A DNA stretch of 35,263 bases from Alphaproteobacteria bacterium. GTDB lineage: Bacteria > Pseudomonadota > Alphaproteobacteria > UBA11222. Within the stretch, counting starts at the first letter, position 1, and every line of letters begins with the position of its first letter. The notes under the pieces were generated by a model. That model was given only the letters and a program-made list of their open reading frames with translations. It was not told the origin of the DNA and did not search any database. Below, one piece after another: positions 9,898 to 28,110 of the stretch. The position numbers and the translations under genes are program-made. The stretch lies in assembly GCA_023252275.1 (NCBI GenBank), contig JAHHGO010000005.1, forward strand, positions 1 to 35,263, written 5' to 3'.

Positions 9898-10569
9898 TCA
9901 CCGGACTGCAATGGGCTGAACCGCGCTGACCGGCCGGTAGGCAATATGTTTGATCAGAAAATCACTGGAATCACTGGTGATCAGGCCCGGTTCAATCTCC
10001 GCCCCGGTTTCGGTTACATAGGGCGTGGCGAACAATTCCAGCCGGTCAAAGGGCTGTGGCGCCGCAATCCGTATCTGATGCGCGCCGCCCTTTTGTCCGG
10101 GCAGGAACAGGCCTTCACCGACCAGCGCGCCGCCGCGATAGGCCCGCCATCCGCCGCGTTCGTGATAGCTGACACCGCCCCATGCGCCTTCATCACGATG
10201 AAAATAATCCACATCAATATCGGTTTGCGTGACGGGCTGATCAAACTGGATAATGATCTGTTCGGAGCGGTTTTCTACCGGATCAAATCCAGTTTCCGCC
10301 TTGATGGCGGGCGCGCTGGCCTGTGCGCCCGCCGCACCGACGCCTTCGCGATGCCGGCCGACGGCCATAGCCGTCGGGGCGTCATCGCGCACATTTTTCG
10401 CCAACAGATGCAGCCCTGCGGGATCCTCTGATCTGCTATTGACCAGATCCACATCAACCCAGCCCGTTTCTTGCGCCACGATCAGGCCCGAAGACACTGA
10501 TTGTGCAAAAACCGGCTGCATGACGCCAGCCATCAACGAAACCATATATCCCAGAACGATCCGGAGCAT
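9898..10569 (-). CDS. Secreted protein of unknown function
   Basis: I do not recognise this 223-residue protein. A clear signal peptide ends PVFAQ (residue 23). The mature part is Gly/Asp-rich and beta-strand-like, with alternating hydrophobic segments (IIIQFDQPVTQTDIDVDYF, HQIRIAAPQPFDRLELFAT) and a closing SSDFLIKHIAYRP. This suggests a beta-sandwich or carbohydrate-binding-like fold, by pattern only. There are no cysteines in the mature part. It lies upstream of lolA with a 64-base space, so the two could be cotranscribed. GAGGCGG precedes the ATG. Confidence 0.75.
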   Translation of the reverse strand: MLRIVLGYMVSLMAGVMQPVFAQSVSSGLIVAQETGWVDVDLVNSRSEDPAGLHLLAKNVRDDAPTAMAVGRHREGVGAAGAQASAPAIKAETGFDPVENRSEQIIIQFDQPVTQTDIDVDYFHRDEGAWGGVSYHERGGWRAYRGGALVGEGLFLPGQKGGAHQIRIAAPQPFDRLELFATPYVTETGAEIEPGLITSDSSDFLIKHIAYRPVSAVQPIAVR

Positions 10570-10719
10570 TGGCCGCCTCTTCTTCGAAAGGTTAATATAT
10601 GGTTAATTTTTCCCTGTGACCGCATATCAGCATGGGAGCGCCCTTCCGATCAAGACGATTCCGATGGGCATGAATGGCGTGTTAGGATCGCGTCAAACTC
10701 ACAGAAGGGGAGCATGAAA

Positions 10720-11709
10720 ATGCGGGCGATGATGGTGCGCGAAAACAGTCTGGACATGTCGGTGATGCAACTGGAGGATGTAAATTTGCCGCCGCCCGGC
10801 GAAAAAGAGGTGCGGGTGCGCATTCGCGCCGCGTCCACCCAGTTTCCCGATATTCTGATGATCCAGAAAAAATATCAGTATCAGCCGCCGCTGCCCTATA
10901 TTCCGGGTACGGAGTTTGCGGGCGATGTGGTGGCGCTGGGCGAAGGCGTCACGCAGTGGAAAATCGGCGATGCCGTGGTGGCGGGCATGTTGTCTGGCGG
11001 CGGTTTCGCCGAAGAGGTGAATGCGCATGAAGGCGCATTGCGGCGCAAGCCGTCGCCATTAAGTTATGGTCAGGCCTGCTCGTTCCGTTCGGCCTATCTG
11101 ACCGCGCAAGTATCGCTGATCCGGCGCGGCGAATTACAGCCGGGCGAAACCCTGCTGGTGCATGGCGCTGCGGGCGGCGTGGGGCTGGCCGCCGTCGAAG
11201 TCGGCAAGATGCTGGGGGCCACTGTTATCGGCACCGGCAGCACCGATGCAAAACTGGCCGTGGTGCGCAAGTATGGCGCGGATCACGTGATCAATTATGG
11301 CGCGGATTTCAAACGGGGCTTTCGCGAAAAAGTGAAAGAGCTGACCGGCGGCAATGGCGCCGATGTGATTTATGACCCGGTGGGCGGCGATGTGTTTGAT
11401 GAATCAATCCGCTGCATCAATTGGGGCGGGCGGCTGCTGATTATCGGCTTTACCTCCGGGCGGATTCCTTCCGCGCCGGTAAACATGCCGCTGATCAAGG
11501 GATTTTCCATTGTCGGCGTGCGCGCCGGAGAATATGGCCGCAAGGACCCGCAAAAGGGCCGTGAGAATATCGCCATGGTTGATCAGTGGGCGGAGGAAGG
11601 CAAAATCAATCCCTATGTCTGCGCCGAAGTGCCGCTGGAACGCGCCCATGAGGCCCTGGCCATGATCCAGGACCGCACGGTTGTCGGGCGCGTCGTTGTG
11701 GTGATGTGA
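10720..11709 (+). CDS. NADPH:quinone oxidoreductase-like MDR enzyme
   Basis: The 329-residue protein is a zinc-independent medium-chain dehydrogenase/reductase. It has a GroES-like N-terminal half (PPLPYIPGTEFAGDVVALGEGV) and a Rossmann half with HGAAGGVGLAAVEVGK (NADPH loop) and GADHVINYGADF. The Cys and His zinc ligands of alcohol dehydrogenases are absent, as expected for quinone oxidoreductases. Two in-frame ATGs occur at 10714 and 10720. AGGGGAG at 10706-10712 is seven bases from the second, which I prefer; longer upstream frames lack homology-like sequence. It points toward the SDR array but is on the opposite strand and ends at a hairpin terminator. Confidence 0.9.
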   Translation: MRAMMVRENSLDMSVMQLEDVNLPPPGEKEVRVRIRAASTQFPDILMIQKKYQYQPPLPYIPGTEFAGDVVALGEGVTQWKIGDAVVAGMLSGGGFAEEVNAHEGALRRKPSPLSYGQACSFRSAYLTAQVSLIRRGELQPGETLLVHGAAGGVGLAAVEVGKMLGATVIGTGSTDAKLAVVRKYGADHVINYGADFKRGFREKVKELTGGNGADVIYDPVGGDVFDESIRCINWGGRLLIIGFTSGRIPSAPVNMPLIKGFSIVGVRAGEYGRKDPQKGRENIAMVDQWAEEGKINPYVCAEVPLERAHEALAMIQDRTVVGRVVVVM

Positions 11710-11844: not shown

Positions 11845-12702
11845 TCAACCCGGCAGCAGGCCCGATTGCTTCACGCCTTTCAGCGACTTGCAATTCGCCG
11901 CCCAGTCATAGGCTTCTGTCAGGCGTTTGCAGCGGGTTTCGATCAGATGTTTCAGCCCCGGATCGGTGAAGATGTAAAGCTGATCGGCCTGCATGGCTTC
12001 CAGCACCAGATGCCCGACAATATCGGGATTGAGGCCCTGGGCCAGCATTTCCGCCGTTCTATCGCGCGGGTTCGGCGCGACAGAGCCGCCATATTGATCA
12101 GGCCGGTTGCGGCCCGAATTGCCGATATTGGTGGCGACCACGCCGGGGCACAGAACCGATGCGCCAATATTATCCTTGCGATGATCGGCCGCGAAGGTTT
12201 CCATCATGCCGACCACGGCGAATTTCGTGGCGTTGTACGGCCCAGCGCCGCGCAGGCCAACCATGCCCGCCATGGATGCGGTGCTGATCACATGCCCGCC
12301 CTCGCCATGCGCCAGGATCAGCGGCACAAACGCCTGCAACCCATAGACGACGCCCCACAGATTGACATCCACCACCCAGTTCCAGTTGCGGATGCTGCAG
12401 CTTTCACTATAGCCGCCCACGGCGACACCGGCATTATTGCTGATGACATGCACCTTGCCGAATGTGTCGACGGTTTTCTTGGCGGCGTTCTGCACCGATT
12501 CGAGCTTGGTGACATCGACCTGCACGCAGGCGGCCTCAAGCCCTTTGGCTTTCAGTTCATCCACCGCCTTTTGAGCGGGGGCCAGTTCAATATCGCCGAT
12601 CATGACCTTCATGCCCGCAGCGGCGAATGCGCGCGCCATGCCCAGGCCCATGCCGCTGGCGCCGCCGGTGATAAAGGCAACTTTTCCTTTTACGTCTTTC
12701 AT
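11845..12702 (-). CDS. SDR family oxidoreductase, tandem copy 1
   Basis: This 285-residue classical short-chain dehydrogenase is one of four adjacent paralogs. The cofactor motif TGGASGMG is at 12-19, NNAG at 89-92, N114, and catalytic S143, Y156 and K160 (YNATK) are all in place, so it should be active. The protein has an acidic D37 after beta-2 (IGDIE), which favours NAD+ over NADP+. The C-terminal 60 residues (DPGLKHLIETRCKRLTEAYDWAANC) are longer than in minimal SDRs and shared by all four copies. The substrate is unknown. A ribosome site is weak here, suggesting translation from an upstream-initiated transcript. Confidence 0.9.
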   Translation of the reverse strand: MKDVKGKVAFITGGASGMGLGMARAFAAAGMKVMIGDIELAPAQKAVDELKAKGLEAACVQVDVTKLESVQNAAKKTVDTFGKVHVISNNAGVAVGGYSESCSIRNWNWVVDVNLWGVVYGLQAFVPLILAHGEGGHVISTASMAGMVGLRGAGPYNATKFAVVGMMETFAADHRKDNIGASVLCPGVVATNIGNSGRNRPDQYGGSVAPNPRDRTAEMLAQGLNPDIVGHLVLEAMQADQLYIFTDPGLKHLIETRCKRLTEAYDWAANCKSLKGVKQSGLLPG

Positions 12703-12793
12703 TGTGTTTATGCCGTCCGCTGGTGCAGACGCCTCCCTTGGCTGAAGTGATGCGGGGCGTTTTCGCCGCCCCGCCTTATTATGAAGTTTTAAG

Positions 12794-13666
12794 CTATTTC
12801 GTCAGCAGACCGCCGGGTAGCGGACCGGCCTGTTTTTCACCTTTCAGCGCCTTGCAGTTCGCCGCCCAGTCATAACCCTGCAGAATGCGCTTGGTGCGGG
12901 TTTCGATAATGTGGCGCAGGCTGGGATCCGTGAAGATGTAGAACTGATTTTCCTGAATGGCTTCCAGCACCTGACGGCCTACCGCATCGGGATTCAGGCC
13001 CTTGGCCAGCTCTGTTGCCGAAATGCCCTTGTCGCTGGCCTTCGCCGCGCCGCCATACTCTTCCTGCCGGTTGCGGGTGGAGCTGGCGATATTGGTGGCG
13101 ACCAGGCCCGGACACAGCACCGAAGAGCTGATATTATCCTTGCGATGTTCCGCCGCAAAAGTTTCCATGATGCCGACCACTGCGAATTTCGTTGCATTAT
13201 ACGGCCCCGCGCCGCGCAGACCGGCCATGCCCGCCATCGACGCCGTGCTGGTCACATGACCGCCTTCGCCATGCGACAGGATCAGCGGCACAAAAGCCTG
13301 CAACCCGTGTACAACACCCCACAGATTGACATCCACCACCCAATGCCAGTTGCGCATGTCGCACGTTTCGCTCATGCCGAACACGCCGATACCGGCATTA
13401 TTGCTGATCAGATGCACCTTGCCGAAGGTGTCCACGGTCTTTTTGGCGGCGGCGTGCATTTGATCCAGCTTGGTCACATCGACCTGAAGCCATGCGGCCT
13501 CATAGCCTTTGCCGGTCAGTTCATCCGCCGCGCGCTTCGCGGGTTCGGCCTCAATATCGGCGACCATGACCTTCATGCCGGCGGCAGCGAAGGCGCGCGC
13601 CATGCCAAGACCCATGCCGCTGGCGCCGCCGGTGATGAACGCGACTTTTCCCTTTACGTCTTTCAT
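12794..13666 (-). CDS. SDR family oxidoreductase, tandem copy 2
   Basis: The 290-residue protein is very close to copy 1, especially in the first 35 residues (MKDVKGKVAFITGGASGMGL is identical). It keeps TGxxxGxG, NNAGIGVFG, the serine of TSTASMAG and the YNATK active site. It differs from copy 1 in the loop after TRNR (EEYGGAAKASDKGISATE) and ends PLPGGLLTK. I use the ATG at 13666, where the paralogs all begin and GGCGGGG precedes; a longer frame to 13741 is not shared. Copy 1 starts 91 bases downstream, so cotranscription is likely. Confidence 0.9.
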   Translation of the reverse strand: MKDVKGKVAFITGGASGMGLGMARAFAAAGMKVMVADIEAEPAKRAADELTGKGYEAAWLQVDVTKLDQMHAAAKKTVDTFGKVHLISNNAGIGVFGMSETCDMRNWHWVVDVNLWGVVHGLQAFVPLILSHGEGGHVTSTASMAGMAGLRGAGPYNATKFAVVGIMETFAAEHRKDNISSSVLCPGLVATNIASSTRNRQEEYGGAAKASDKGISATELAKGLNPDAVGRQVLEAIQENQFYIFTDPSLRHIIETRTKRILQGYDWAANCKALKGEKQAGPLPGGLLTK

Positions 13667-13793
13667 GCTGATTACCCCGCCTGCCTGCGCAAGCGCCTCC
13701 CTGTTCTGAGTGAAGCGGGGCTTGTTGTGCGCGCCCCGCAATTTTTATGTGCCGCCAGCTTTGCCTAACAACGGACGCGGGTCAAGCCGATTG

Positions 13794-14666
13794 CTATTCC
13801 GACATCATATTGGATGGCAGCGCGCCGGATTGTTTCTGGCCCGCCAGCGCCTTGCATTTATCGGCCCAGTCATAACCCGCCATCAAACGCCTGTGCCGCG
13901 ATTCGATCATCTTGCGCATGGTTGGATCGGTGAAAATATAGGGCTGATTGTCGATGATGGCTTCCAGCACCTGCTTGCCGACAATATCAGGATGCAGGCC
14001 CTGCGCCAGCACATCGGCGATGCGTTCTTTCGAGCTTGGCGGCGCCGCGCCGCCATAATCATCCTGGCGGTTACGGGTGGAGGTGGAAATATTGGTCGCC
14101 ACCGCGCCGGGGCACAGCACCGAAATGCCCAGATTGGTCTTGCGGTTTTCCGCCATCATGGTTTCCATGATGCCGACCACCGCGAATTTGGTGGCGTTGT
14201 ACGGACCCGCGCCGCTAAGCCCAACCATGCCCGCCATCGATGACGTGCTGACCACATGGCCGCCTTCGCCGTGCGACAGGATCAACGGCACAAAGGCCTG
14301 TAACCCATAGACAACGCCCCACAGATTGACATCCACCACCCATTCCCAATTTTTGAGATTGCAGGTTTCGCTTTTGCCGAACACGCCGATGCCGGCATTG
14401 TTGCTGAGCACATGCACTTTGCCGAATGTGTCGACGGTTTTTTTCGCCGCCGCCTGCATATCCGGCATTTTGGTGACATCCAGCCGCACGCAGGCCACGT
14501 CATAGCCTTTGGCCTTCAGCGCATCGGTTTCGCGCTGCAGGGGGCCGGCTTCAATATCGGCCAGCATCACTTTCATGCCCGCCTCTGCAAAGGCCCGCGC
14601 CATGCCAAGGCCCATGCCGCTGGCGGCGCCCGTGACAAACGCCACTTTTCCCTTTACGTCTTTCAT
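13794..14666 (-). CDS. SDR family oxidoreductase, tandem copy 3
   Basis: The 290-residue third paralog begins MKDVKGKVAFVTGAASGMGL and keeps the full set of SDR motifs: TGxxxGxG, NNAGIGVFGKSE, the serine of STSSMAGM and YNATK. It resembles copy 2 in NNAGIGVFG and copy 4 in METMMAENRKTNLGISVLCPGAVATNI, so parts of the array look mosaic. GGGAGA precedes the start. It lies 127 bases upstream of copy 2. Confidence 0.9.
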   Translation of the reverse strand: MKDVKGKVAFVTGAASGMGLGMARAFAEAGMKVMLADIEAGPLQRETDALKAKGYDVACVRLDVTKMPDMQAAAKKTVDTFGKVHVLSNNAGIGVFGKSETCNLKNWEWVVDVNLWGVVYGLQAFVPLILSHGEGGHVVSTSSMAGMVGLSGAGPYNATKFAVVGIMETMMAENRKTNLGISVLCPGAVATNISTSTRNRQDDYGGAAPPSSKERIADVLAQGLHPDIVGKQVLEAIIDNQPYIFTDPTMRKMIESRHRRLMAGYDWADKCKALAGQKQSGALPSNMMSE

Positions 14667-14742
14667 AATCTTATCTCCCGCTGATTACTCCGTTCACGGA
14701 GTTATGTGATTGTTGGTGATCATTGAATTGCAATCCATATGC

Positions 14743-14838
14743 CGTCATTACGAGCGAAGCGCGTCAATCCAGAGTCACAAGGCACGGCCTTGATTTGCCG
14801 CTCTGGATTGCCACGCCGCTTCGCTCCTCGCAATGACG
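14743..14838. repeat. REP-like palindrome (CGTCATTACGAGCGAAGC type) between SDR copies 3 and 4
   Basis: The outer arms CGTCATTACGAG and CTCGCAATGACG match with one mismatch. Inner arms CAATCCAGAG (14765-14774) and CTCTGGATTG (14811-14820) are perfect. The 96-base element can fold into one long interrupted hairpin. Its outer sequence is of the widely dispersed type GTCATTGCGAGNAGCGAAGC seen in many proteobacteria. It is the only such element inside the SDR array and lies where the paralogs diverge in spacing. Confidence 0.8.
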
Positions 14839-14864
14839 ATGAAAACATACATGCTTTAACTTGC

Positions 14865-15722
14865 CTATTTACGTTGCAGGCTGCCCTGCTTGGCGCCCGC
14901 CAGCGCATCGCAGCTATCGGCCCAGTCATAGCCCGACAGGATTTTGCGAAAGCGCGATTCAACCATCTTTCGCATATTGGGATCGGTGAAAATATAGGGC
15001 TGGTTTTTCAGAATGGCTTCCAGCACCTGCTTGCCGACCACATCGGGATGCAGGCCCTGGGCCAGCGCCTCATTGCTGATGTCCAGATCGCTGGGAACGG
15101 CCGCGCCGCCATATTCCTGCTGCCGGTTGCGGGTCGAGCTGCCGATATTGGTGGCCACCGCGCCCGGGCACAGCACCGAAACGCCGATATTGCTGTTGCG
15201 ATTTTCCGCCATCATGGTTTCCATCATGCCGACCACCGCAAATTTCGCCGCATTATAGGGGCCAAGATTGCGCACCCCATACATGCCCGCCATTGAGGCG
15301 GTGGCCATCACATGGCCTTCCTCGCCATGCGATCTGATCAACGGCATAAAGGCCTGCAAGCCATAGACAACGCCCCACAGATTGACATCGACGCACCAGC
15401 GCCAGTTGCGCATGTCGCAGGTTTCGGATTTGCCGCCGACGCCGACGCCCGCATTGTTGCACAGCACATGCACCTTGCCGAAGGTCTCGATGGTTTTTTT
15501 GGCGGCGTTGTGCAGCGCTTCTTCCTTGGTGACATCCACCTGCACACCGGCCACGTCATAGCCCTTGGCTTTCAGATCGGCGACCTGGGCCTGCAATGTC
15601 GTGTCCTCAATGTCGCTGAGCATCACCTTCATGCCCGCCGCGCCAAATGCGCGCGCCATGCCCAGGCCCATGCCGCTCGCCGCGCCTGTGATGAACGCCA
15701 CTTTTCCCTTTACGTCTTTCAT
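14865..15722 (-). CDS. SDR family oxidoreductase, tandem copy 4 (first of the array)
   Basis: The 285-residue protein is the promoter-proximal copy. Motifs: TGAASGMG at 12-19, NNAGVGVGGKSE, the serine of ATASMAGM, and YNAAK in place of YNATK, with the essential Tyr and Lys kept. It ends AGAKQGSLQRK, lacking the GxLP tail of the other three. GGAGGGAAG lies just before the ATG, the best ribosome site of the four. A palindromic repeat separates it from copy 3, possibly a partial transcription barrier. Confidence 0.9.
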   Translation of the reverse strand: MKDVKGKVAFITGAASGMGLGMARAFGAAGMKVMLSDIEDTTLQAQVADLKAKGYDVAGVQVDVTKEEALHNAAKKTIETFGKVHVLCNNAGVGVGGKSETCDMRNWRWCVDVNLWGVVYGLQAFMPLIRSHGEEGHVMATASMAGMYGVRNLGPYNAAKFAVVGMMETMMAENRNSNIGVSVLCPGAVATNIGSSTRNRQQEYGGAAVPSDLDISNEALAQGLHPDVVGKQVLEAILKNQPYIFTDPNMRKMVESRFRKILSGYDWADSCDALAGAKQGSLQRK

Positions 15723-16398: not shown

Positions 16399-17193
16399 TT
16401 ATCCGACCTTCGCCGCATGGCCGCCATCGATGGGCAGTACCGCGCCGGTGACGAAATTAGCCTCATCCGACGCCAGATAGAGCGCGCCATAAGCCACATC
16501 CCAGCCGGTGCCCATCTTGCCGCGCAACGGAACGATCCGGTCGCGCATGGCGCGCACCTCTTCGCGCGAAATGCCGCGCGCCTTGACATTGCCTTCGATC
16601 GCCATCGGCGTGTCCATCAGGCCGGGCATGATGACATTGCAGCGCACGCCATATTTGGCGTTGGTCATGGCAATGGACTGGGTCAGCTTGTTAACGCCCG
16701 CCTTGGAAATTTCATAGGCGGTGATGCCGCCGCTGGATACCGCCGCGGCGGATGAAATATTAATGATCGAGCCGGATTGCTGTTCGCGCATCACCGGGAT
16801 GACATGCTTGCAGGTCAGCCACATGGCTTTGAGATTGACCAGCATGATCTGATCATAGGCGTCTTCGGTTAGTTTGTGCGGCGGCGCATCGCCTGCGCCG
16901 ATGCCGACATTATTATGCAATATGTCGATGCGGCCCATTTTTTTCAGGGCCGCCTGCACCAGCGCCACATTGGCCGGCTCGCTGGTGATGTCACATTCAT
17001 ACGCGAAGGCGCTGCCGCCTTCCTGCACGATCATATCGACAGTGTCCTGCGCCGATTGCAGGCGTTTGTCCACGCACATCACCTGTGCGCCCTCACGGGC
17101 GAACAGGATGGCCGTTGCACGGCCATTGCCGATGGTTTCGCCCGGCGTTTGCCCGGCGCCAATGACAATGGCCTTCTTGCCGCTAAGGCGCAT
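16399..17193 (-). CDS. SDR family oxidoreductase with modified glycine loop
   Basis: The 264-residue protein is a short-chain dehydrogenase but not a close relative of the four-copy array. S148, Y160 and K164 (AYEISKAG) are present, and the C-terminus VTGAVLPIDGGHAA is typical of the FabG-like group. The cofactor loop reads GAGQTPGETIGNG (12-24) instead of TGxxxGxG, with about four extra residues, and NNVG (94-97) replaces NNAG. Such variants occur in a subset of SDRs annotated from catabolic clusters. The first CMD-like gene ends 3 bases downstream on the map, directly upstream in the transcript, so the two are probably cotranscribed. Confidence 0.88.
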   Translation of the reverse strand: MRLSGKKAIVIGAGQTPGETIGNGRATAILFAREGAQVMCVDKRLQSAQDTVDMIVQEGGSAFAYECDITSEPANVALVQAALKKMGRIDILHNNVGIGAGDAPPHKLTEDAYDQIMLVNLKAMWLTCKHVIPVMREQQSGSIINISSAAAVSSGGITAYEISKAGVNKLTQSIAMTNAKYGVRCNVIMPGLMDTPMAIEGNVKARGISREEVRAMRDRIVPLRGKMGTGWDVAYGALYLASDEANFVTGAVLPIDGGHAAKVG

Positions 17194-17195
17194 GA

Positions 17196-17864
17196 TCAGA
17201 ACCCTTTCACACCCTCATCCAGCTGCACGCCGAAGGATTTAAGCGCCATCGACACCAGATTATACTGTCCGACGGTGAACACCACATCCATCATCTGCTG
17301 GGTAGTGTAGGTTTTGGCCAGGGCGTTCCAGGTGGCGTCCGAAATCATGGCATCCTTGCGCAGTTCATCGGCGGCGCGGATCAGCAGTGCGTCATGCGCG
17401 CTCCAGCCCGGCGCCTCAGCGCCCAGCTTGATACGGGCGATTTCTTCATCCGTTAGCCCGACGCCTTTGCCGATAACGGCATGCTGACCCCATTCATATT
17501 CCGCCTGGCACAGCCAGCCGATACGCAGAATCAGAATTTCACGTTCGCGCGGCGGCAGCGTGTTGGTATCGCCCATCACATGATTGGACCATACGTTGAA
17601 TTTCTGGCGCGCCGCCTCATGCTGCGCCAGGGTGCCCAGCACATTATACGCCTTCAGCTTTGTGCCAAACATCATAGCGCCATCCTTGAAGGGGGCAAGT
17701 TCCTTTGCCTGCGCCTCGGTCCACTGGCTTTGCTCAAGCGGCGGGATGCGTGGCGTTGTGGGGTCGGGTGATTTATTTTTGGCGCTTTGGGCATGCGCAG
17801 GACTTGCAAGCAGCAATCCGAGCATAGCCATGCAGCCAAGGCTCATGGAAGATAGTTTGATCAT
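17196..17864 (-). CDS. Carboxymuconolactone decarboxylase-like protein, exported copy
   Basis: This 222-residue CMD-family protein carries a signal peptide (about 1-26, ending AHAQ), unlike its two neighbours. The core region NTLPPREREILILRIGWLC, EYEWGQH and GLTDEEIARIK is the CMD/AhpD-like all-helical fold. AhpD's CxxC is missing; only one Cys (IGWLC) stays, followed by the E-W-H pattern, so peroxidase activity of the AhpD type is unlikely. The reaction is unknown. Export to the periplasm is inferred from the signal peptide and is unusual for this family. It lies immediately upstream of the fifth SDR gene. Confidence 0.85.
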   Translation of the reverse strand: MIKLSSMSLGCMAMLGLLLASPAHAQSAKNKSPDPTTPRIPPLEQSQWTEAQAKELAPFKDGAMMFGTKLKAYNVLGTLAQHEAARQKFNVWSNHVMGDTNTLPPREREILILRIGWLCQAEYEWGQHAVIGKGVGLTDEEIARIKLGAEAPGWSAHDALLIRAADELRKDAMISDATWNALAKTYTTQQMMDVVFTVGQYNLVSMALKSFGVQLDEGVKGF

Positions 17865-17948
17865 TGCCTTCCTCCCTGAAAGACCGCTCCCTGACGGATT
17901 ACCCGTCTTGTTTTATCAAGTCACCCGCAAGCCCGCGGACCGCCTGCG

Positions 17949-18521
17949 CTAGAATCCTTTCACGCCTTCATCCAGTTGCACACCGAAACTGTTCAGGCAC
18001 ATGGACACCAGATTATACTGGCCGACGGTGAACACCACATCCATCAATTGCTGGGTGTTGTATGTCTTGGCCAGCCCGTTCCAGACGGCGTCCGAAATGC
18101 AGGCGTCCTTGTGCAGATCATCCGTGGCGCGGATCAGCAGCGCGTCATGTTCGCTCCAGCCCGGCGCGTCCGCGCCCAGCTTGATGCGGGCGATTTCCTC
18201 GTCGCTCAGGCCCACGGCGCGGCCAAACACCACATGCTGGCCCCATTCATATTCCGCCTCGCACAGCCAGCCGATGCGCAGGATCAGAATTTCGCGTTCG
18301 CGCGGGGGCAGCGTGTTCGTCGCGCCCATAATGTGATTGGCCCAGACGCCGAATTTTTTGTTGGCCTCGGGATGGCGCGACAGCGTGCCGAGCACATTAT
18401 AGACATGCATTCTGGCGCCGAACTGAGTGGTGCCGGCCTTGAGGGGGGCCAATGTCTTGGCCTGTTCCGGTGTCCATTCATTTTCGGCAAGCGGCGGAAT
18501 GCGCGGCTTTGACAGTTTCAT
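17949..18521 (-). CDS. Carboxymuconolactone decarboxylase-like protein, cytosolic copy A
   Basis: The 190-residue protein starts MKLSKPRIPPLAENEW and shares most of its length with both neighbours, including NTLPPREREILILRIGWLCE and AEYEWGQHVVFGRAVGLSDEEI. No signal peptide is present. The ATG at 18521 is preferred because GGGAGAG lies just upstream and the third copy begins with the same residues; the frame extends to 18548. It shares the conserved C-terminus (FGVQLDEGVKGF), so the three genes are clear tandem duplicates. Confidence 0.87.
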   Translation of the reverse strand: MKLSKPRIPPLAENEWTPEQAKTLAPLKAGTTQFGARMHVYNVLGTLSRHPEANKKFGVWANHIMGATNTLPPREREILILRIGWLCEAEYEWGQHVVFGRAVGLSDEEIARIKLGADAPGWSEHDALLIRATDDLHKDACISDAVWNGLAKTYNTQQLMDVVFTVGQYNLVSMCLNSFGVQLDEGVKGF

Positions 18522-18593
18522 GATGATGCTCTCCCCTTTGTCCTCCAATGCTTGTGCGCAGGAGGTTGTTTTTATTTCTTATAAGAGATCAGT

Positions 18594-18614
18594 CTGCCCT
18601 ATTTTGCAGGGCAG
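18594..18614. repeat. Stem-loop between CMD-like copies
   Basis: CTGCCCT (18594-18600) pairs perfectly with AGGGCAG (18608-18614) around a 7-base loop, in the 118-base space between two tandem minus-strand genes. There is no T-run in the direction of transcription. It could be an mRNA processing or stability hairpin. Confidence 0.4.
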
Positions 18615-18639
18615 GTGAAGACCCAATCCGCGCGGGTGA

Positions 18640-19209
18640 TCAGAAACCCTTCAGCCCTTCGTCCAGCTGCACGCCAAACGAATTCAGCACCATCGACACC
18701 AGATTATACTGGCCGACGGCAAACACCACATCCATCAGTTGCTGGGTATTGTAGGTTTTAGCGAGCCCGTTCCAGGTCGCGTCTGAAATGCAGGCGTCCT
18801 TGTGCAGCTCGTCGGCGGCGCGCAGCAGCAGTGCGTCATGTTCGCTCCAGCCGGGCGCGTCCGGCCCTTTCTTAATGCGCTCAATCTCGGCATCGCTCAG
18901 GCCGCAGGCGCGGCCTATGACCGCATGTTGCGCCCATTCATATTCCGCCTCGCACAGCCAGCCGATGCGCAGGATGAGAATTTCACGTTCGCGTGCGCCA
19001 ATCGTCGATGTGTCGCCCATGACATGAAACGCCCAGACATTGAATTTTTTGGCGGCAATCGGGTGATTGCCGAGCGTGCCCATCACATTGAACACCACCG
19101 CATTGCTGATGGCGCTTTTGCCTTTTTTGGCGGCCTCAAAACCGGGCCTTTGCTCTGCGCTCCACTGGCTTTCGGGCAGCGGCGGAATACGGGGTTTGGA
19201 CAGTTTCAT
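18640..19209 (-). CDS. Carboxymuconolactone decarboxylase-like protein, cytosolic copy B (first of three)
   Basis: The 189-residue promoter-proximal copy starts MKLSKPRIPPLPESQW. It keeps the shared core (AREREILILRIGWLCE, AEYEWAQHAVIGRACGLSDAEIERI), but the segment before it, GNHPIAAKKFNVWAFHVMGDTSTIG, differs from the NTLPP of the others. It ends FGVQLDEGLKGF. There is no signal peptide. It is divergent from the AbrB-type antitoxin gene, sharing a 146-base intergenic region. Confidence 0.87.
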   Translation of the reverse strand: MKLSKPRIPPLPESQWSAEQRPGFEAAKKGKSAISNAVVFNVMGTLGNHPIAAKKFNVWAFHVMGDTSTIGAREREILILRIGWLCEAEYEWAQHAVIGRACGLSDAEIERIKKGPDAPGWSEHDALLLRAADELHKDACISDATWNGLAKTYNTQQLMDVVFAVGQYNLVSMVLNSFGVQLDEGLKGF

Positions 19210-19355: not shown

Positions 19356-19583
19356 ATGATTGAACTGAAAGTGCGGAAATTTGGCAATTCGCTGGGCGTC
19401 ATCCTGCCGCGTGAGGCGATCGAGCGGATGCGCAGCGCCGATGGCGCGGCGCTGTTTCTGATTGAGGCCCCGGATGGCGGCTATTTGCTGAGCCCCTATG
19501 ATCCCGCATTTGCGGATAAAATGCGCAAGGCCGATGATATTGCCGGGCGCTATCGCAACGCGCTGCGCGGCCTGGATAAATGA
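19356..19583 (+). CDS. AbrB/MazE-type antitoxin
   Basis: The 75-residue protein has an N-terminal swapped-hairpin DNA-binding domain with KVRKFGNSLGVILPREAIERM, the hallmark of MazE/SpoVT-AbrB antitoxins. A short tail (DIAGRYRNALRGLDK) would contact the toxin. GGGAGG precedes the ATG. Its TGA overlaps the next ATG (ATGA at 19580-19583), so the pair is made together. AbrB-fold antitoxins are known with Doc-type toxins as well as MazF, and here the partner is Doc-like. Confidence 0.88.
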   Translation: MIELKVRKFGNSLGVILPREAIERMRSADGAALFLIEAPDGGYLLSPYDPAFADKMRKADDIAGRYRNALRGLDK

Positions 19584-19975
19584 TCGCGCCCCTATGGATC
19601 GGCGAAAGTGACGCGCTTGCGCTGCATGGCTGGCTGCAGGCCCGGCATGGCGGACAGGCCGGGCTGCGCGACGCCCAGTTGCTGCGCGCCATTTTGGAAC
19701 ATCCGAGGGCGCATTTCGCCTATGCCGGGGCGGCAGACATTGCTGAACTGGCCGCGGCCTATATGGCGGGGATTGTGCGCAACCGCCCCTTTACCGGGGG
19801 CAATGCGCGCGCCGGATTTATGATAGGCGCAGTGTTTCTGGAACTGAACGGGCTGCGCCTGACCGCGCCCGAGCTGGAGATGGCGCAAGCCCTTCTGGCG
19901 CTGGCCTCGGGCCGCCTGACCGAACTGGGTCTGACCGCGTTTTTAAGCGAAAATGTGGCGGCAATGCCTGAATAA
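19580..19975 (+). CDS. Doc-like (Fic family) protein with degenerate active site
   Basis: The 131-residue protein has the compact Doc helical fold: an N-terminal GLRDAQLLRAILEHPRAHFAY and a C-terminal APELEMAQALLALASGRLTE. Active Doc toxins phosphorylate EF-Tu using a motif like HPFxDGNKRT. Here residues 68-78 read NRPFTGGNARA: the catalytic His is Arg69, the Asp is Gly73 and the Lys is Ala76, while Gly74, Asn75 and Arg77 remain. The frame is otherwise open and full length. It is probably catalytically dead, or does something else, such as binding the antitoxin or nucleotide. It overlaps its AbrB-type partner by four bases. Confidence 0.88.
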   Translation: MIAPLWIGESDALALHGWLQARHGGQAGLRDAQLLRAILEHPRAHFAYAGAADIAELAAAYMAGIVRNRPFTGGNARAGFMIGAVFLELNGLRLTAPELEMAQALLALASGRLTELGLTAFLSENVAAMPE

Positions 19976-26921: not shown

Positions 26922-27359
26922 TTGACCGGAGAGCATCACGATCTTCCAAAGCACCTTGAGATGATCCAAGACGTTATCGAGCGTCATGCTCGATCATCGT
27001 TTCTTTTCAAGGGATGGTCCGTGACCATCGTAGCCGCTGTATTTCTGTTGGCCGCACGAGGGGCTTCGCCTTTTCTCACGATGGCGGCGGGACTGTTGCC
27101 GTCTTTCGCATTCTGGGGACTGGATGCCTATTACCTTATGCAGGAACGAATCTATCGTGCGCTTTACGATCATGTGCGCAAGAGTGAAACCAAGTCCGAT
27201 AATCGGTTCACCATGGATGCGCAATCCTGCAAGGCCGGTGTTTCGTCGTGGGCAAGCACACTTTTCTCGCCGTCTGTGTTTTGGTTCCATGCTCCCGTTG
27301 CGTTGCTTATCGTAGGAGCATTAACGTTTTTCTCCTTGGGGTGCAATCATGGCACGTAA
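26922..27359 (+). CDS. Small multi-pass membrane protein, putative effector of a TIR system
   Basis: I do not recognise a named family for this 145-residue protein. An N-terminal amphipathic helix (EMIQDVIERHARSSFLFK) leads to two close membrane segments at about 28-46 and 49-68. A charged cytosolic helix follows (YLMQERIYRALYDHVRKSE), then a third segment at about 119-140. The 2TM-plus-helix start recalls SLATT-type pore effectors, by layout only. The start is a TTG with AGGA seven bases upstream (26911-26914); an ATG at 26961 lacks a good ribosome site. Its stop lies inside the TIR gene (11-base overlap), so the two must be made together. It probably acts as the membrane-damaging or sensing partner of the TIR protein. 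Confidence 0.75.
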   Translation: MTGEHHDLPKHLEMIQDVIERHARSSFLFKGWSVTIVAAVFLLAARGASPFLTMAAGLLPSFAFWGLDAYYLMQERIYRALYDHVRKSETKSDNRFTMDAQSCKAGVSSWASTLFSPSVFWFHAPVALLIVGALTFFSLGCNHGT

Positions 27360-28110
27360 GGTATTTTTCAGCTTTCATTACGATGACGTCAGTCGCGCAA
27401 ACGTGGTTCGTAAATCTGACACCATCACACGGCAATACCAGATGGGCGCTCGTTTCTATGACAAGAGCCTTTGGGAGGATGCCAAAAAGCAGGGATCATT
27501 AGCTATTAAGAGGATGATCGATAATGCCCTTGAGGGTAGCTCGGTCACATGTGTTCTAATCGGCCAACAGACTTGGCAGCGCGAATGGGTTCGATACGAA
27601 ATTCTCAAAAGCATGGCGCGTGGGAATGGGATACTTGGCGTCAACATCCATGATGTAGGTTTCGATCCGGCGGATAAGCAATCAACACATTTCGGCCTAC
27701 TCGCACCGCAAACAAAACATAACGGGTTTTTAAGCCTCGGAACATCACAGTCGCGGAGTCCAACTCTCGGACTTCTCGCGTCTTCGCTAATTGATTCCGG
27801 AGTGCAAACGACGCTGGCACCTTTACCTGGCCCCAATCCGCTTCAATATCTTGGCTACACTATTGAGCGATCCCATGGTTTACTGACTAATTATGGCTCC
27901 GTTGTATTTCACGAAGTTGGGCCCAACAATCAATGGCAGCCAAGCCTTCACGTTAAACCTGAATTGCTAGGGAATCTCGGATACCTTTCAAGGCTAAAGG
28001 ATGCCGATAATTTGACCGGTCTGTTCCCGGTCTATGATTGGAAGCGCCAGAACGGTTTTCAAAACTTCCACATTTGGGTAGAGAATGCCGCAAAATACGT
28101 GGGACGCTGA
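27349..28110 (+). CDS. DUF1863/ThsB-type TIR protein with internal insertion
   Basis: The 253-residue protein opens with a DUF1863 TIR-like domain: KVFFSFHYDDVSRANVVRKS, then LWEDAKKQGSLAIKRMIDNAL, VTCVLIGQQTWQREWVRYEI and GNGILGVNIHDV (residues 4-105). The usual closing strand and helix of that domain, VYDWKRQNGFQNFHIWVENA, appear only near the C-terminus, so about 120 residues are inserted between. ThsB-like TIR proteins make NAD-derived signal molecules when phage infects, which activate a partner effector. That role is inferred here. It overlaps the membrane-protein gene by 11 bases. Base composition is clearly lower in G+C than the neighbours, indicating transfer. No ThsA (SIR2-SLOG), macro or caspase-like partner is nearby. 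Confidence 0.82.
   Translation: MARKVFFSFHYDDVSRANVVRKSDTITRQYQMGARFYDKSLWEDAKKQGSLAIKRMIDNALEGSSVTCVLIGQQTWQREWVRYEILKSMARGNGILGVNIHDVGFDPADKQSTHFGLLAPQTKHNGFLSLGTSQSRSPTLGLLASSLIDSGVQTTLAPLPGPNPLQYLGYTIERSHGLLTNYGSVVFHEVGPNNQWQPSLHVKPELLGNLGYLSRLKDADNLTGLFPVYDWKRQNGFQNFHIWVENAAKYVGR

Follow-up and report, generated by a model that had tools for sequence, protein, structure and literature searches.

The stretch of DNA analysed here (the window; 35,263 nucleotides) comes from a draft genome of 2.96 Mb in 318 contigs that is 97% complete. Its minus strand carries a run of genes, from position 19209 down to 11845, in the order CMD3, CMD2, CMD1, SDR_E, SDR_D, SDR_C, SDR_B and SDR_A. The three tandem open reading frames resembling carboxymuconolactone decarboxylase (CMD), which a preliminary description had placed at 17196-19209, are all present. 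CMD3 (18640..19209; 189 aa) and CMD2 (17949..18521; 190 aa when counted from the ATG, the mechanical list of reading frames having begun at a TTG at 18548) lack a signal and share the start MKLSKPRIPPL; their orthologues in the congener G002 are 88% and 91% identical, respectively. CMD1 (17196..17864; 222 aa) has a predicted N-terminal export signal. The genes beside the three CMDs do encode short-chain dehydrogenases (SDRs), as was first supposed: the ATG of SDR_E (16399..17193) lies 2 bases past the CMD1 stop codon, and SDR_D (14865..15722), SDR_C (13794..14666), SDR_B (12794..13666; start placed at the ATG of MKDVKGK) and SDR_A (11845..12702) are paralogues on the same strand.

The place after SDR_A is taken by a gene on the opposite strand resembling zinc-type alcohol dehydrogenase/quinone oxidoreductase (10501-11709); in G002 (L099 6996-7994) and G005 (L102 6074-6967) SDR_A is followed by a gene that resembles the 3-hydroxyisobutyrate-dehydrogenase-like gene of a Pseudomonadales locus, L061, the L061 copy being the one on which Pfam was run. 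The gap between SDR_D and SDR_C (14690-14864) exceeds its G002 counterpart by about 150 bases, and the plus strand here encodes "MPSLRAKRVNPESQG...RSGLPRRFAPRNDDEN", which we take to resemble a known alphaproteobacterial palindromic repeat. On the plus strand at 19356-19975, a reading frame named by resemblance as an AbrB/MazE-like antitoxin (19356-19583) overlaps a gene for a Fic/Doc protein (PF02661, 46.6 bits). The Fic motif reads RPFTGGNAR in the window and HPFIDGNKR in the corresponding G002 copy (L099 247-636); with the His and the Asp of the motif gone, the window toxin may be inactive. Further along the plus strand (27349-28110) there is a ThsB-like TIR protein (PF08937, 83.4 bits; PADLOC ThsB, 4.7e-48) with about 150 additional residues beyond its TIR-like domain.

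CMD1 begins MIKLSSMSLGCMAMLGLLLASPAHAQSAKNKSPDPTTPRIPPL, that is, with a leader (MIKLSS...LASPAHA, followed by Q) and a linker ahead of PRIPPL. It is the only one of the three CMDs with these additions, in agreement with the preliminary description. The leader has the n-h-c layout of a Sec signal peptide: K3, the one positive side chain of the n-region, a hydrophobic stretch at about residues 9-20 (9-residue mean 2.54), and small residues at -3 and -1 in the pattern of signal peptidase I. The predicted signal peptide spans residues 1-25 (17790..17864, minus strand), with cleavage between AHA and QS, and the 12-residue linker spans residues 26-37 (QSAKNKSPDPTT; 17754..17789, minus strand) and is absent from CMD2 and CMD3 in the alignment. 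AlphaFold places the leader outside the fold, with block pLDDT values of 44, 47 and 53 for residues 1-30. Export would have been an artefact had the start codon been misplaced, a refutation that had been foreseen and that fails: a GGAGG ribosome-binding site (17871..17875, minus strand) lies 6 bases before the ATG, all in-frame start codons of CMD1 are before or inside the hydrophobic stretch, and no ATG, GTG or TTG occurs in frame between that stretch and PRIPPL, ahead of the enzyme fold. A lipoprotein or Tat leader was also rejected, since there is no RR and C11, which sits very near the start, is preceded by S-L-G, presumably not a lipobox. The first six mature residues, QSAKNK, include two lysines, and lysines early in the mature part can slow Sec export.

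Third-position GC content is lower in the leader than in the CMD1 core (0.54 versus 0.71), which leaves room for a recent addition of the leader. A second copy or donor of its DNA was not found in the same genome (next best E 2.35), nor was a donor of the peptide found across six genomes of the order (next best E 0.05). The leader may have been inserted after the first codons, because "MIKLS" of CMD1 is similar to "MKLSK" of CMD2 and CMD3, although five residues are too few to decide.

To score signals we used a home-made sum of hydrophobic core, -3/-1 residues and charges. It gave 4.34 for CMD1, 4.33 for LptA of the window, 5.16 for LolA, -1.42 for CMD2 and -1.93 for CMD3. The score is crude and serves as a guide only: UbiH, a flavoprotein, obtains 4.08 and SDR_A-D obtain 3.0-3.3. 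Only 3 in 5000 shuffles of the first 60 residues of CMD1 reached 4.3, as did 19 neighbouring reading frames in other loci (n=270; seven loci had no centred reading frame). An earlier scoring of family members took the aligned start only; when every upstream start was tried in 92 members of the CMD1-3 subfamily (distinct in their last 100 residues and matching with at least 120 bits), the two CMD1 entries scored 4.34 and the other 90 at most 2.31. CMD1 is counted twice in that set, once as a cut copy, and the set possibly includes CMD2 and CMD3 of the window and other cut copies.

CMD1 (35.0 bits) and CMD2 (31.3 bits) match PF02627 above the Pfam cut-off of 23, and CMD3 (20.3 bits) is plainly a homologue of CMD2 despite falling below it. 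No NCBIfam model matched CMD1-3 at E 0.001. The AlphaFold model of CMD1, built from a 51-row alignment, has a mean pLDDT of 88, with 172 of its 222 residues at 90 or above and the block at 61-70 at 76, and it adopts the all-helical CMD/AhpD fold: the best match (6k40) has Z 20.2 and rmsd 2.4 over 180 residues, followed by 2oyo (Z 20.1), the debrominase Bmp8 (6ohi; 17.8) and AhpD of M. tuberculosis (1knc; 11.5). Solved structures gave no hits when searched with the single sequence and 11 with a profile, their names being CMD/AhpD-like or uncharacterised.

In the profile alignment to 2gmy, the C-x-x-C-x3-H of that structure falls over A121-x-x-E124-x3-H128 of CMD1. The CxxC of AhpD had been said to be absent from all three window proteins and it is: CxxCxxxH occurs in none of 65 family sequences that include CMD1-3, and E[WFY]xxH occurs in all 65. 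This family set consists of CMD1-3 and 62 relatives, taken from 72 rows after removal of the window copies, of cores outside 170-200 aa and of rows with X. The absence of the motif rules out an AhpD-type peroxidase; with CxxC replaced by A121..E124 no thiol peroxidase chemistry is to be expected, and the sequences of CMD1-3 exclude thiol chemistry of the AhpD kind. We infer instead acid-base chemistry without a cofactor in the family copies. R108, E109, I112, R114, Y123, E124, W125, H128, D166, W179 and G199 are invariant across the 51 chosen rows of the alignment (near-copies and cut or N-holding rows excluded), and in columns that are at least 95% conserved among the 62 relatives CMD1 deviates only at N209, where the conserved residue is K. 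The low cysteine count of mature CMD1 (one, versus three in CMD2 and CMD3) was set aside, for one cysteine is found in 39 of the 65 sequences.

Within a conserved CMD-SDR operon, CMD1 arose by tandem duplication of CMD2. In G002 (L099) the order CMD3-CMD2-SDR_E-SDR_D-SDR_C-SDR_B-SDR_A is identical, at 88-95% protein identity, and CMD1 is missing; there 2 bases separate the CMD2 stop codon from the SDR_E start, and in the window it is CMD1 that occupies this slot, with a gap that is also 2 bases. CMD1 was not found in the five other genomes of the order that were examined, one of which (G003, placed in the genus of the window) is only 64% complete. The tree joins CMD2 with its G002 orthologue and places CMD1 as their sister (support 100/92 for the pair, 99/97 for the trio). 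The dS values for CMD1-CMD2 and for CMD2-G002 CMD2 are similar (0.69 and 0.67), so the duplication appears about as old as the species split; either CMD1 was lost in G002 or a faster branch is placed slightly wrongly in the tree. At the protein level the copies differ: dN is 0.169 for CMD1-CMD2 and 0.055 for CMD2-G002 CMD2, about threefold, with dN/dS of 0.24 and 0.08, and 33 sites are changed in CMD1 only, against 5 each in CMD2 and G002 CMD2. To judge from these rates CMD1 is under purifying selection yet diverging; its faster change could be relaxation, and its substrate may differ from that of CMD2, given 33 residues of its own and the raised dN at similar dS. G003, G004 and G005 each have, in addition to SDR_E, a single CMD, accompanied by SDR_D and SDR_A in G003 and by SDR_A only in G004 and G005; both gene families thus seem to have expanded in the window operon, to three CMDs and SDR_A-D (11845-15722).

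The pairing of CMD with SDR_E recurs without being universal. Among the 36 matches to SDR_E in a class sample of 385 genomes, the best 20 include 10 loci with a same-strand CMD of the CMD1-3 subfamily directly upstream; the window's own locus, one from a congener and one from a genome of the same family are among these 10. One further locus has a divergent CMD and one a distant CMD, and the 1.5-kb flanks examined at the other eight contain none. From the side of the CMD, SDR_E adjoins it in 11 of 57 loci in the genome collection, several of them on contigs that end early, and these include Myxococcota and a Lokiarchaeota bin. Other CMD loci have thioredoxin and chaperone genes (gammaproteobacteria) or amidohydrolase-like genes (Binatota), all named by resemblance. 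At L061, genes for CoA-transferase III, CMD, SDR_E, SDR_A and the 3-hydroxyisobutyrate-dehydrogenase-like protein form a run, near which a flavin monooxygenase, an amidohydrolase and a thiolase-like protein are encoded; at L102 the genes that come next are for an MFS transporter and an AMP-binding protein. The CMD-SDR operon is probably catabolic, and its SDRs probably act in the breakdown of ring compounds, a substrate class that we infer. The genome has nine hits for Rieske ring-hydroxylases, and isotope probing has linked the UBA11222 clade to biphenyl oxidation (PMC8630052); none of the present analyses connects CMD1 directly with a ring compound.

The expectation that CMD proteins are normally cytosolic holds for the CMD1-3 subfamily, in its 92 entries, but not for PF02627 at large. 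No leader was seen by eye in CMD relatives from five other genomes of the order, in the other rows of the 72-row family set, in 14 other matching genomes of a 398-genome phylum sample, or in the CMDs beside SDR_E at the best 20 loci of the class sample, the class and phylum samples covering matches above set limits. Of the CMDs found next to SDR_E, none but CMD1 has a leader, and among the sequences searched no other predicted-exported member of its subfamily was found. In the top 90 PF02627 hits of 150 genomes, to which three loci of the window's genome were added and which favour strong CMD domains, at least three have signals that are credible by eye: L228 (MKMAAASLLSLCLLAGPAAGQ), L180 (MRHLLVNACLTLAIVVTALPGVVCAQ) and L172, of twin-arginine type (MTLDRRTIIAGAATLPLATEGQA). 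This count is a matter of judgement, since L151 scores 4.53 and is unconvincing by eye while L172 scores only 2.62. Judged in this way, exported CMD proteins already exist as a kind in other PF02627 subfamilies. The window queries, SDRs included, had no match in the 2-3 kb loci around L172, L180 and L228. No title or abstract opening that we found describes an exported CMD of the CMD1 kind, which does not prove that none has been described, and a plasmid collection held 93 records with distant relatives, all less than 60% identical.

These observations are best accounted for, with a probability of roughly 0.55 for the explanation as a whole, by a duplicate of CMD2 that has gained a Sec-type leader and acts as a cofactor-free enzyme in the periplasm while its sisters stay in the cytosol. 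An enzyme of cytosolic type, CMD2, would have given rise to the tandem copy CMD1, which would then have acquired the signal peptide; CMD1 would be exported, cut after Ala25 and active in the periplasm. Export by means of this leader is in itself likely. The putative enzyme would use the CMD/AhpD fold for acid-base catalysis without a cofactor, with E109, Y123 and H128 in an arrangement like the AhpD proton relay and with Glu124, and might decarboxylate, hydrate, isomerise or open a compound of the lactone or keto-acid type. CMD2 and CMD3 would remain cytosolic, serving the SDRs of their own operon. With no CxxC there would be no need for a thiol partner, which would make leaving the cytosol feasible. 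Weighing against this explanation, only one genome shows the leader, and conservation therefore offers no proof of its importance. We put forward more tentatively, and as a doubtful extension, that a catabolic step has been split, exported CMD1 converting a lactone or keto acid before uptake and CMD2 and CMD3 carrying out the same chemistry inside and delivering the product to the SDRs. On this view the absence of CxxC would have enabled the move.

It is unlikely that CMD1 is exported for a different and unrelated job in the envelope, with, for example, a signalling lactone or an envelope compound as its substrate and no pathway being split. The 33 changes private to CMD1 and its threefold dN are what such a job would lead one to expect, but the active-site residues have been retained and CMD1 sits directly upstream of SDR_E in the slot that CMD2 fills in G002. 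That the leader is no working export signal, and that CMD1 remains in the cytosol or is retained in the inner membrane through an uncleaved anchor, seems more improbable still: the weak charge of the n-region, the early mature lysines, the score of 4.08 for UbiH and the confinement to one genome speak for it, and are set against a complete n-h-c layout with its AHA site, a score equal to that of LptA and a good ribosome-binding site.

Very little probability attaches to CMD1 being a decaying duplicate whose 5' end gained a random open stretch. Its absence from G002 and its faster protein change would fit with decay, but a dN/dS of 0.24, a frame with no stop and the retained active-site residues would not, and shuffles of its own N-terminus so rarely reach the signal score. 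Hardly credible at all is a leader created as a chimaera in the assembly; a draft in 318 contigs and the lower GC3 of the leader allow for one, but the frame is intact, the ribosome-binding site is in place and the leader DNA has no second copy in the genome.

If the duplicate of CMD2 is indeed exported, it represents a clean and fairly recent case of a change of compartment in which a leader was gained around a tandem duplication and for which controls are built in: leaderless sisters and a congener that lacks CMD1. A periplasmic catabolic step in the uncultured UBA11222 clade would likewise be indicated. CMD1 would then provide a handle on the CMD-SDR pair, which extends from Alphaproteobacteria to Myxococcota and whose CMD matches no NCBIfam model.

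The known systems that resemble CMD1 do so in different ways. Its model has its fold in common with AhpD and peroxidase-related structures (PDB 6k40, 2oyo, 2prr, 3c1l, 2gmy and 1knc). The AhpD relay consists of Glu118, Cys130, His132, Cys133 and His137, according to PMC3141380; E109, Y123 and H128 of CMD1 are spaced like Glu118, His132 and His137, with the same 19 residues from E109 to H128 as from Glu118 to His137, and the conserved Glu124 stands where AhpD has its second cysteine. The same paper describes gamma-CMD members without CxxC and notes that for carboxymuconolactone decarboxylase no active site had yet been determined. L172, L180 and L228 resemble CMD1, by eye, in that their CMD domain follows a Sec-like or Tat-like signal, and differ in belonging to other PF02627 subfamilies and in having QxxxH where CMD1 has ExxxH; in the 90 sampled hits CxxCxxxH occurs 43 times, ExxxH 40 times and QxxxH 7 times. 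Canonical PcaC, the gamma-carboxymuconolactone decarboxylase (TIGR02425; EC 4.1.1.44), was rejected as an identity for CMD1-3: no protein of the genome exceeds the TIGR02425 cut-off (best 90.7 versus 155.7) and none of its five matches to that model is from the window. PcaC and CMD1-3 share the PF02627 domain, the lack of CxxC and a Glu four residues ahead of a His, a pattern that the 40 ExxxH hits have too. CMD1-3 are longer than PcaC (189-222 aa versus a 123-position model), and they are further set apart by their SDR operon and, in CMD1, by the signal peptide.
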